64,000 nt of DNA from positions 434,001 to 498,000 of the forward strand of contig NZ_CAKAKL010000002.1 in assembly GCF_916619195.1 (NCBI RefSeq), given 5' to 3'. Origin of the DNA: Inquilinus sp. Marseille-Q2685 (GTDB taxonomy: Bacteria; Pseudomonadota; Alphaproteobacteria; DSM-16000; Inquilinaceae). The translations under genes and the position numbers were made by a program. The notes below the pieces were generated by a model. The model did no database searches. It saw only the letters and a list, made by a program, of their open reading frames with translations, and was not told the origin of the DNA. Within the stretch, counting starts at the first letter, position 1; each line of letters starts with the position of its first letter. Positions 19,753-22,899 of the stretch are shown piece by piece.

Positions 19753-20637
19753 TTACGTCGGCATGTCGCGATGGACCAGCCCGCGGCGATAGCCCTGGCC
19801 GTCCAGCCAGGCCGCCAGCGTCTCCGCCACGAACACCGATCGATGTTTGCCGCCGGTGCAGCCGACGGCGATGGTGAGATAGCTCTTGCCCTCGCGGTTG
19901 TAGCGCGGCAGCAGCGGTTCGAGCAGGCCGAACAGCGAGGCCATGAACGGGTCGAACTGGGCGTCGCGCCGGATCATCGCCTGCACCGCCGGGTCCTGGC
20001 CGGTCTGCGGCCGCAGGTCCGGCACCCAGTGCGGGTTGTCGAGGAAGCGGACGTCGAACACCAGGTCGGCCTCGCGCGGCAGGCCGCGCTTGAAGGAGAA
20101 CGACATCACCGTGACATAGAGGCCGGGCGTGGTGTCGAGGCCGAAATGCCCCTCGATCAGCCGCCGCAGGTCCTGCGGGCTGGTCAGCGAGGTGTCGACC
20201 ACCACATCGGCCAGGAGGCGCAGCGGATACAATTCCAGCCGCTCGCGCCGGATGCCGTCCGCCACCGGCCGGTCGATCGCCAGCGGGTGGCGCCGCCGGG
20301 TCTCGGTGTAGCGGCGCTGCAGCACCTCGTCGTCGGCGTCGACGAACAGCAGCCGCACGTCGACGTCGCCGCGGGCGCGCAGGGCCGCGATCTCGGCCTC
20401 CAGCGCCTCGACCGAGAAGCCGCGGGTGCGGGTGTCGATGGTTACAGCCATCGGCCGGCCCTCGGCATGGTCGACCAGGGGGCCCAGCAGCGCGATCGGC
20501 AGATTGTCGATCGCCTCGTGGCCGAGATCCTCGAGGGTCTTGAGCGAGGTGGAATGGCCGGCGCCGGACAGGCCGGTCACCAGCACCAGACGATGGCGGA
20601 CGCCGGGATGCGCCGTGGTTTGGGGATCAGCCTGCAT
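19753..20637 (-). CDS. rapZ: RapZ-family nucleotide/RNA-binding adaptor (YvcJ-like)
   Basis: 294 aa. The N-terminal P-loop domain and C-terminal domain (GCTGGKHRSVFVAE at 259-272) are those of RapZ/YvcJ. In E. coli RapZ binds the GlmZ sRNA and senses glucosamine-6-phosphate; in alphaproteobacteria it is always near hprK and PTS genes. The P-loop reads GLSGAGHST (22-30): the invariant Lys is His28, so ATP hydrolysis is doubtful. The start codon and codons 2-3 lie inside the left arm of a 268-bp palindromic repeat (20629-20896), so the repeat supplies the translation start. No other ATG precedes the conserved LVLVTGLSG, and the first 14 residues are not family-like. Confidence 0.92.
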   Translation of the reverse strand: MQADPQTTAHPGVRHRLVLVTGLSGAGHSTSLKTLEDLGHEAIDNLPIALLGPLVDHAEGRPMAVTIDTRTRGFSVEALEAEIAALRARGDVDVRLLFVDADDEVLQRRYTETRRRHPLAIDRPVADGIRRERLELYPLRLLADVVVDTSLTSPQDLRRLIEGHFGLDTTPGLYVTVMSFSFKRGLPREADLVFDVRFLDNPHWVPDLRPQTGQDPAVQAMIRRDAQFDPFMASLFGLLEPLLPRYNREGKSYLTIAVGCTGGKHRSVFVAETLAAWLDGQGYRRGLVHRDMPT

Positions 20638-20896
20638 TTCTCAGACCCCTTGTGCCCTGCGCCGACGCCACAGGCCGCCAGGGCAGGAGAGCGGCGCAGC
20701 GCGATGTCGCACATCGGGCAAGCCGCTCGACGCACCCTGGCGGCCTGTGGCGTCGGCCCGGAGGGTCGCCTTGCGGCGGCCGCCTGCGGGCGCGGGCCGC
20801 TCGACCGTATGGCCTGATACGCTCTTCGCAGCCCGCGCCCTCATTCGACTCGCCGCAAGGCGACGCAGGGCGCAAGGGGTCTGAGAAATGCAGGCT
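20629..20896. repeat. 268-bp nested palindromic element between hprK and rapZ
   Basis: Terminal inverted repeats of 33 nt (20629-20661 and 20864-20896) match with one mismatch; the inner part reads TTCTCAGACCCCTTG on the left. Inside are two further perfect hairpins. Hairpin A pairs 20661-20683 with 20735-20757 (23 bp). Hairpin B pairs 20765-20778 with 20851-20864 (14 bp) and then 20788-20797 with 20831-20840 (10 bp). Folded as RNA or single-stranded DNA it would form a three-way junction with two long arms. No transposase is encoded, and no target duplication was recognised. The element fills the whole hprK-rapZ gap: it ends 5 bp before the hprK stop codon and includes the first three rapZ codons. 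It resembles a MITE or palindromic intergenic repeat; the family is unknown to me. Confidence 0.9.
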
Positions 20897-20901
20897 AGTG
20901 C

Positions 20902-21339
20902 TCATCGTGCGAGACGGTGTTCGGGCAGGGCCAGCGCGGTCAGGGCCAGGCGCAGCTTGACCGGCGCCGAGGCCTCGAACGGCGCCACCGAGACCAGCGG
21001 CAGGCGGATGCCGAGATAGGCGCACACCGCCGGCTCCGGCAGCCGCTCGATCGCCTCGGCCGGCTTCAGGTCGGCGACCAGCAGCACCGGGGCGGCCGGC
21101 ACGAAGGGCACCGGGATCGGGCCGAAGCCGCGGGCCTCGATCAGCCCGGCCAGGACGGCGGGCGGGCGCGCCACCACGACGCCGCCCTCGAGCGAGAGCT
21201 GCACGCGGTCGTCGGCGACCAGACGCCCCCCGGCATCGATCAGCCGGAGGGCCAGGTCGGATTTGCCGCTGCCCGACGGCCCGCGCAGCAGCACGCCGCG
21301 GCCGTCGACTGCGACGCAGGTCGCATGGATCGTCGCCAT
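20902..21339 (-). CDS. hprK: HPr kinase/phosphorylase, short alphaproteobacterial form
   Basis: 145 aa from the ATG at 21339 (MATIHATCVAVDG), the conserved start of the short HprK that consists only of the C-terminal kinase domain. Walker A is GPSGSGKS at 20-27, and VADDRV near 41-46 holds the acidic residues used for Mg2+ and catalysis. The frame extends upstream to a TTG at 21405 but that extension is not family-like. The enzyme phosphorylates HPr on its regulatory serine. It lies downstream of the SH3/PPC protein gene and chvG, and a palindromic element separates it from rapZ. Cytosolic. Confidence 0.93.
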   Translation of the reverse strand: MATIHATCVAVDGRGVLLRGPSGSGKSDLALRLIDAGGRLVADDRVQLSLEGGVVVARPPAVLAGLIEARGFGPIPVPFVPAAPVLLVADLKPAEAIERLPEPAVCAYLGIRLPLVSVAPFEASAPVKLRLALTALALPEHRLAR

Positions 21340-21411
21340 CGCGGGTGGGAAGGTGACCGGCCCCCCGACGCCTGTCAATCGCAACGGCAAATCGTCTGAC
21401 AACAAGACGCG

Positions 21412-22899
21412 TTATTTCGCCGGCACCGCCTTGGCCTCCAGCGTGTAGGGCGTGTCGCCCTGATAGGAGTAGACGCGCAGCAGATAGGTGCCGGGGTCCA
21501 GCCTCAGCTGCAGCTCCTCCGGATCGGTGCCGGATTCGGCGCCGCTGATCAGGCTTTCCTGGTCCGAGGCGCGCAGGAGGTCGATGTCGGCGTCGCCCTG
21601 CTCCATGGTCATGCGGATGGTGACGTCGGCGCGGTTGACCAGGGTGAAGCGCCAATAGTCGTCGCGGTCGGTGAAGCCGACCCAGTCCTTGACGGTCACC
21701 GGCTGCGGCCCGACGCGCTCGATCGTGCCGGCCTCGTCGGGGGTGTTGCCGGCATGGTCCGGCGGCGGCGGGGCGGCGGCCGCGCCGGCCACGGTGACCC
21801 GGTATTCGGTGGCCTCGCTGCCGGCCGGATAGACGTTCAGGTAGTAGGTGCCGGGATCGAGCGTCGCGGTCAGCGCCTCCGCCTCGGTGTCGGTGTTGGT
21901 GCCGCTCAGCAGATAGGCGCCGTCGGTCCCCTCCAGGTTGATGTCGGCGTCGGCTGACAGGCCGTCCAGGCCGATGGTGACGGCCTGCCGCTCGCGGATC
22001 GTGAAGGCGTAGTAGTCGCTGGAATCGGCCGGGCCGACCCAGTCGCTGGCCTCGGCGCTGCCACCGGTGACGTCGCCCAGGTCGCGGGCGCCGGACTGGT
22101 TCGATCCCGCCGAATCCGGCGGCGGCGCTTCGCCCGGGGTGCCGGAGACGGAGAGGCGGTACGGCGTGTCGTCGCCGTAGCTGGTGATCACCAGGTAGTA
22201 GGTGCCGGGCCCGACCACCGTGGCGATGCGCTCGTCGTCGGAGCCGCCATTGGCCGAGGAGCCGAGGGTGCTGTCGTCGCCGTCCTTCAGTTCGATATCG
22301 GCATCGCCGGTCATCCCGGCGAGCGTGACGGTCAGGTCGGTCCAGCCCTCGGTGGTGATGGCATAGACGTCGGTCTGGTCGCTGTTCGAGACCCGGCCCT
22401 CGGCGGCGAGCGGGGAGGAGCCCACGGTCCCGAGCGGCGTCGCGGTCCCGATCGTGTCGTCGGCGGAGCCGTCGGCCGGGTCCAGGTCGGGCGCGCCGGC
22501 ACCGGCGCCGGGCATGGCGATGCGCATCGGCGCCAGCGTCTGCGCCCACATGTAGCCGACCGGCGTCTTCGGCGTCTGCACCCGCCCCCAGCCGCCCGCG
22601 GCCAGCCGGCCGGTGACGATGACCTGGGACCCGAAGGGCAGCGTCTCCTTCAGCTCGGCGGTGCCGTTCGGGGCGCCGCGGACCGAGGCGCTGGCCCAGG
22701 TGACGAAGGACAGCGCGTCCATCTCCTCGAGCACCGCCGGAGCGGCCGGTGCCTCGGCCGGCGCCGCCGGCTCGGCCGCATCGGCCTGGACCTGGACGAC
22801 CACCGGCGGCGGCACCACCGTCTGGGTCTGGGCCAGGGCCGGCGCCGCGGCCAGGGCGAAGACGCTGCCGAGCAGCAGCCCGCGCAGGCTCGATGTCAT
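21412..22899 (-). CDS. Exported protein with SH3-like domain and three PPC-type repeats
   Basis: 495 aa. A signal peptide (MTSSLRGLLLGSVFALAAAP, cleavage near ALAQ 24) and a Pro/Ala linker lead to a bacterial SH3-like domain at about 60-115 (ASVRGAPNGTAEL, GWGRVQTPKTPVGYMWA). Three pre-peptidase C-terminal (PPC)-like beta domains of about 100 residues follow. Each contains a DxYxF/I core and a PGTYYL or PGTYLL strand: VGPGTYYLVITSYGDD, LDPGTYYLNVYPAGS, LDPGTYLLRVYSYQGD. ATG at 22899 follows GGGGG. A GTG start overlapping the chvG stop (22944) is possible but would hide the signal peptide. Its place between chvG and hprK suggests a link to envelope sensing by ChvG. It has no catalytic motif. 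Confidence 0.82.
   Translation of the reverse strand: MTSSLRGLLLGSVFALAAAPALAQTQTVVPPPVVVQVQADAAEPAAPAEAPAAPAVLEEMDALSFVTWASASVRGAPNGTAELKETLPFGSQVIVTGRLAAGGWGRVQTPKTPVGYMWAQTLAPMRIAMPGAGAGAPDLDPADGSADDTIGTATPLGTVGSSPLAAEGRVSNSDQTDVYAITTEGWTDLTVTLAGMTGDADIELKDGDDSTLGSSANGGSDDERIATVVGPGTYYLVITSYGDDTPYRLSVSGTPGEAPPPDSAGSNQSGARDLGDVTGGSAEASDWVGPADSSDYYAFTIRERQAVTIGLDGLSADADINLEGTDGAYLLSGTNTDTEAEALTATLDPGTYYLNVYPAGSEATEYRVTVAGAAAAPPPPDHAGNTPDEAGTIERVGPQPVTVKDWVGFTDRDDYWRFTLVNRADVTIRMTMEQGDADIDLLRASDQESLISGAESGTDPEELQLRLDPGTYLLRVYSYQGDTPYTLEAKAVPAK

Follow-up and report, generated by a model that had tools for sequence, protein, structure and literature searches.

The locus between hprK and rapZ in Inquilinus sp. 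Marseille-Q2685 raises the question of how a gene comes to take its start codon from a long palindrome, and of what that palindrome is. In the window analyzed here, a stretch of 64,000 nucleotides, both genes lie on the minus strand: rapZ at 19753..20637 (RapZ, PF03668/PF22740) and hprK at 20902..21405 (HPr kinase C-terminal domain, PF07475, with the start taken from a mechanical ORF list). The junction is occupied by a nested palindromic element of 268 nt (20629..20896, AGCC...GGCT, no strand assigned) that contains the ATG of rapZ; the length is 264 nt (CC...GG) when a putative 4-bp target duplication is left out. The terminal arms, which are of the IS1380 inverted-repeat type, are located at 20629..20661 (plus strand) and 20864..20896 (minus strand) and are 94% complementary over 36 nt (20629-20664 and 20861-20896). 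The inner repeats at 20661-20683/20735-20757 (23 nt) and 20765-20778/20851-20864 (14 nt) are each 100% complementary. They delimit internal hairpin A (20661..20757, a perfect 23-bp stem) and internal hairpin B (20765..20864, a 14-bp stem plus an inner stem), neither with an assigned strand. Hairpins A and B match their own reverse complements at 79% and 77%, respectively, and neither matches the other. The nested palindrome described in the initial annotation is confirmed by this complementarity, and the coordinates agree with its placement of the element 5 nt from the hprK stop codon (20902-20904).

The minus-strand reading of the left arm carries the new rapZ start codon (ATG CAG GCT) at 20635..20637, inside the arm as first annotated, preceded by a Shine–Dalgarno-like AAGGGG at 20646..20651 (minus strand) that is identified from sequence and family statistics. 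The ancestral rapZ start codon (20903..20905, minus strand) lies outside the element and overlaps the hprK stop as ATGA. From this old start a leader ORF of 92 codons runs through the whole element (20627..20905, minus strand) and ends on a TGA (20627-20629) that is located 8 nt past the new ATG. The minus-strand RNA can fold as had been proposed, with a calculated energy of −234 kcal/mol versus a shuffle mean of −140 (z −17.3; 0 of 200 shuffles as stable). An Rfam search of 20000-21500 returned nothing above the gathering score, the only two matches being chance-level miRNA matches far below the cutoff.

The element is an insertion that the five congeners lack at this site. The hprK–rapZ site was found without it in 5 of 5 congeners, where the two genes overlap as ATGA. 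The comparison of N-termini gives M-(T/S)-D in all five congeners, beginning at the ancestral start that is retained in the source genome, versus M-Q-A for the element-derived start. The order in the source genome is ATGAGCACT, element, GATCCCCAA, and the two flanks summed equal the length of the empty site, so this copy sits between codons 3 and 4 of rapZ.

The same element occurs in at least 26 places in its own genome (7.29 Mb, 18 contigs) at 76–100% identity, a minimum given that scoring covered 40 of 142 candidates. It is present in 6 of 6 Inquilinus genomes searched, which bears out the suggestion of a repeat family. Across 41 genomes, its own among them, the search gave matches in 15, and those beyond Inquilinus were mostly weak. 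For 20 further insertions, none of 79 orthologous genus rows contains the element, where "empty" denotes no match in the fetched stretch for three 3′-end sites with diverged flanks (L027, L028, and L040). Six other insertions appear common to two species, and some insertions are therefore presumably older. No match was obtained in plasmids at the blastn level. The copies compared below are the 76 with both arms intact from 92 places kept; L179 and L230 (contig ends, not boundable) and 14 truncated, remote, or weak copies (L065, L066, L191, L192, L207, and L220-L228) were dropped, and some partial copies, mostly at contig ends, lie outside the set. Two copies from a genome of another family (L063 and L064) were excluded from the structure counts, which use 74 copies. 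Another GC-rich, palindromic-looking repeat of the GAGTCCCCCCTC...GGGAGGGGGGACT type, intergenic in Inquilinus and unrelated to the rapZ element, was observed at approximately 1244-1500 of L219 and beyond position 3703 of L055, after the second M20 gene.

The ends of the element match those of IS1380-family transposons (CTAGCCCGnATTTCTCA), and no transposase is encoded. The domain PF13701, which we take to be the marker of the IS1380 family, gave a strong match in 19 of 190 genomes of the class. Thirty PF13701 loci were inspected: eight have both ends within three mismatches of the motif, and two are exact at both ends. The loci with exact element ends carry CTAG or CTAA at both edges. The terminal CTAGCCCGnATTTCTCA / TGAGAAATnCGGGCTAG and the CTAG-like flanks at PF13701 loci are common to IS1380-family insertion sequences, to MITEs derived from them, and to the element described here, which differs from the former in being approximately 268 nt long, in lacking a transposase, and in folding end to end as two hairpins within a long stem. 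The flanks of the copies strongly but not strictly favor YT|AR (29 of 76 have T and A at both edges), and an exact 4-bp YTAR duplication is putative for most copies. The element is short (268 nt), multicopy (at least 26 places in its own genome), and free of a transposase, and judged by its ends it is an IS1380-type MITE. No PF13701 transposase was found in the six Inquilinus genomes; a transposase in the same genome would be supportive of the MITE class and is not required for it. A search of the own genome for an autonomous full-length partner gave seven end-motif matches outside the copies, with no convincing inverted partner in the fetched sequence, which reached less than 3 kb beyond the motif. 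An IS630/mariner origin (TA target) was also considered and was rejected on the absence of PF13358 (DDE_3) from the own genome and on the match of the ends to IS1380.

The supply of a start codon is not peculiar to rapZ. An in-frame ATG is supplied to a gene by 31 of the 76 copies (L063 and L064 among them), where a start donor is defined as an arm ATG opening a gene-like frame of at least 60 codons with a GC3 of at least 0.86. Two candidates antisense to known genes (the left arms of L034 and L038) were removed, and a GTG donor (L204) stands outside the 31. A Pfam or NCBIfam match was obtained for 29 of the 31 genes (E values up to 1e-8). Pfam matched 16 of the 17 genes scanned with it, and NCBIfam matched 10 of 10, four of them above the curated cutoff and several cut by the fetched stretch; the last four genes were scanned together with the Pfam miss, and three matched. 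The remaining two, L178 and L206, are one gene in two species with no Pfam or NCBIfam family match. Genes above NCBIfam cutoffs are PurN, ornithine carbamoyltransferase (L052), TilS, Ddl, PurM, and CcmE. ScpB, chorismate mutase, diacylglycerol kinase, and an ABC transporter domain are identified by Pfam, while HdaA, HisZ, and a CCA-type nucleotidyltransferase fall below the NCBIfam cutoffs. The initial annotation had suggested that a structured RNA at the rapZ start could be autoregulatory through RapZ itself. This is not supported: the same element stands at the starts of purN, argF, ddl, tilS, scpB, and others, which leaves an autoregulatory RapZ target as a coincidental possibility only.

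Comparison with empty alleles indicates that 13 of 15 start sites have kept an old start in the gene frame, upstream of the element. The distance from the old start to a fixed downstream anchor equals that in at least one empty congener at 11 of the 15 and differs by multiples of three at two (L032 and L059); the other two sites (L036 and L055_1) are without a matching old start in the gene frame. An ATG is present at both ends in 43 of 76 copies, and the mean length of the Shine–Dalgarno match is slightly higher on the donor side (4.87) than elsewhere (3.78–4.39). Several individual sites were observed in passing. The purN start of G000 (L030) and the purM start of G001 (L205) carry independent insertions in two species at what is probably the same purMN pair. 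Copies at L055:673-941 and 2212-2479 lie on both sides of one M20 peptidase gene; two M20 genes follow one another here, and each copy supplies the start codon of one of them. At arm pair 21, a G–G mismatch is present in 10 of 74 copies; six of these (L028, L044, L052, L054, L057, and L061) retain AAGGAG in the right arm and not in the left, which looks like retention of the Shine–Dalgarno side.

The donated starts are associated with the position at which the frame crossing the element ends. Among the 31 start copies, 28 have the first stop of element frame 0 between −6 and +8 nt from the new ATG, versus 16 of 45 other copies read in the same orientation (Fisher p 1.4e-6, a statistic that ignores kinship). 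The statistic reads element frame 0, which is usually the frame of the old start, and does not demand an old start. In the opposite orientation such a stop is found in 5 of the 45 other copies, and on the opposite strand in 8 of the 31 start copies; donor orientation is 27 to 4 among the start copies. For a length of 268 nt, the leader frame ends on the TAR or TGA of the element edge, 8 nt past the ATG, and for lengths such as 267 nt its stop is the TGA of TGAGAAATG, 6 nt upstream of the ATG. The exceptions are L036, L055_1 (whose own GTG frame does end in this manner), and L182. The last of these, a 264-nt copy in G002, has its leader in frame with a downstream FecR-like gene and would be a natural N-terminal fusion. 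The probability that the Shine–Dalgarno to ATG segment is unpaired is calculated as 0.029 in the whole fold and 0.414 when only the last 33 nt and the downstream sequence are folded.

The reading that we favor, and hold to be reasonably likely, is that this family is a non-autonomous IS1380-type MITE whose ends act as a portable translation start, with a translational relay across the element. On the sequence patterns just described, the relay at donated starts is probable. Ribosomes leaving hprK would use the ancestral ATGA overlap to start again at the old rapZ ATG and would read the 92-codon leader through the hairpin, melting the stem that would otherwise hide the Shine–Dalgarno sequence and the ATG. 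Leader translation would end 8 nt past the new ATG, where the same or a fresh ribosome would start RapZ as M-Q-A. We propose that by this handover the insertion keeps the operon translationally coupled. The location of copies at gene boundaries would reflect in part the target, since YTAR is scarce within genes at 72% GC, and in part the survival of tolerable insertions. The association of the relay with start sites is not proven to be free of descent. A quick tree of the 74 copies requires at least 20 changes in start-site use, and a kinship test found only four supported independent pairs, of which 2.4 on average go the same way for the relay and 0.1 the opposite way (sign-test median p 0.5). 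In a relocation null, the leader frame is open in 58 cases versus a mean of 46.4 (range 34–55), and two other frames also exceed their nulls (41 versus 15.7 and 16 versus 5.4), so this null is too simple.

The main competing account is plain survivorship, in which YTAR-like sites at any location serve as targets, insertions that do harm disappear, and in-frame start donation is what is left. On this account the leader frame would be without function, and the new Shine–Dalgarno sequence and ATG would initiate alone. YTAR targets are rare in the window and lie mostly at gene ends: the 26 sites (one of which is the element's own edge at 20895) comprise 10 intergenic, 8 at stops, 7 interior, and 1 near a start by crude gene calls. 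Target choice would therefore largely explain the gene-end positions, and the overlapping stop follows automatically from the 268-nt length and the TAR/TGA edge once the frame is open. Target choice does not explain the 31 of 76 insertions near starts, to be compared with 1 of 26 targets in this one window. The nearly complete pairing of the Shine–Dalgarno sequence and ATG in the whole fold and the association of an open leader with start sites also speak against independent initiation, and we regard survivorship as rather unlikely. Five of the 76 copies may be interior to genes; in four of them a stop codon lies at the element edge, and the fifth (L184) donates a start. A further reading, that the new ATG is unused and that RapZ is made from the old one by bypass, splicing, or frameshifting across the element, is very improbable. 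The old start is indeed retained in frame at rapZ and other sites, but the donated ATG is by definition in the gene frame in all 31 start copies, and this phase is preserved at the 13 of 15 sites that have kept a matching old start; both points count against bypass.

The pairing of the arms bears on another alternative, that of a selected device in which the Y-shaped RNA is maintained as a processing or regulatory site. The very stable fold is in its favor, and double changes occur in 53 of 99 consensus pairs, whose cells comprise 6895 Watson–Crick, 277 G–U, 86 A–C, 41 other, and 27 gapped. Eight pairs have a non-Watson–Crick type in more than eight copies, and the type is G–U on the plus strand in seven and A–C in one. 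Among rare mismatches, however, G–U and A–C are equal (73 and 73). Six orthologous insertion pairs show 31 one-sided, 4 two-sided, and 31 unpaired changes, with 11 G–U versus 13 A–C. Pairing is thus not visibly defended in place, the host genes are unrelated, and a selected RNA device appears distinctly improbable. DNA-level homogenization looks like the better fit to the arm covariation. Replication template-switching or hairpin repair may copy arm onto arm with no compensatory selection, and the former is a described process for the homogenization of arms (PMC8604942). Within a copy the arms mismatch at 1.85 of 26 positions, a level attained by 0 of 10000 shuffles, versus 7.88 for arms of different copies, and the arms are perfect over 26 nt in 7 of 74 copies. 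Paired changes prevail between paralogs (14.3 paired versus 7.4 one-sided, mean of 500 sampled pairs) and not between the six ortholog pairs (4 versus 31). Paralogs are nevertheless more diverged (47 changes versus approximately 12 for orthologs), leaving room for slow compensation, and the high-frequency G–U bias hints at some constraint at the RNA level. Arm copying is accordingly given an even chance.

The favored reading, a MITE with a portable start and a relay, can be set beside several known systems. Rickettsia palindromic elements are likewise dispersed palindromes that keep the frame open at genes (PMC10969869). They are in-frame fusions inside proteins, whereas the Inquilinus element stands at the gene start, donates the ATG, and ends its own frame there; its copies are start-proximal or intergenic rather than in-frame inserts within ORFs, with one in-frame fusion (L182). 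Termination–reinitiation and the coupling of overlapping genes (ATGA/TGATG) through upstream translation likewise have stop and start a few nucleotides apart and a Shine–Dalgarno sequence in the upstream frame (PMC6728339). That coupling is a fixed genomic arrangement, whereas here its parts would travel on a transposon. REP/BIME, Correia/NEMIS, and QMITE sequences also form families of short palindromes or MITEs dispersed in intergenic positions (for a part of them, PMC5896051), and the passages considered here describe no donation of a start codon with a leader frame. Neither PMC10969869 nor PMC5896051 contains the term "start codon", and none of the open-license PMC papers listed in the searches deals with a MITE whose donated start codons come with a bridging frame.

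The MITE ends extend far beyond Inquilinus. When genome contigs were searched for this palindrome of the ends with 255–285 nt spacing, at least 119 stretches were found, and among the 80 listed (L236-L315) are Thioalkalivibrio, Thiodiazotropha, Tistlia, Pelagibius, Mesorhizobium, Acanthopleuribacter, Bryobacterales, Calothrix, and several other groups. By record titles these include Alpha- and Gammaproteobacteria, Acanthopleuribacter and Bryobacterales (Acidobacteriota), the cyanobacterium Calothrix, and other phyla; an Omnitrophica MAG is also among them, and the internal sequences differ. Outside the genus, start donation looks clear at two loci, L240 (an ABC gene of Mesorhizobium) and L252 (ribH in a proteobacterial MAG), and L237, titled Inquilinus sp., is a further clear-looking case. 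Among 71 of these loci (the 80 listed minus nine titled I. limosus), ORFs of at least 100 codons in the donated frame were found on 31 of 142 sides, not above the neighboring frame (49 of 142), and no general claim of start donation in distant phyla is therefore made.

Insertions in operons mostly silence the downstream genes. It is possible, though we put it at somewhat less than an even chance, that this transposon family has evolved as a relay cassette, with an outward Shine–Dalgarno sequence and ATG, a stop-free crossing frame, and a length that sets the stop on the new ATG. Were this the case, the element would jump into tightly coupled operons, and even into likely essential genes, without breaking them, rewriting N-termini to M-(Q/R)-A and adding a leader peptide of approximately 90 residues. 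A mobile element that carries a start, a stop, and a bridging frame with it would illustrate how transposons can come to do almost no harm in tightly packed bacterial operons, and how the starts of genes and the coupling within operons come to be rewritten. Some misassigned gene starts and short hypothetical ORFs in annotations would find an explanation as well.
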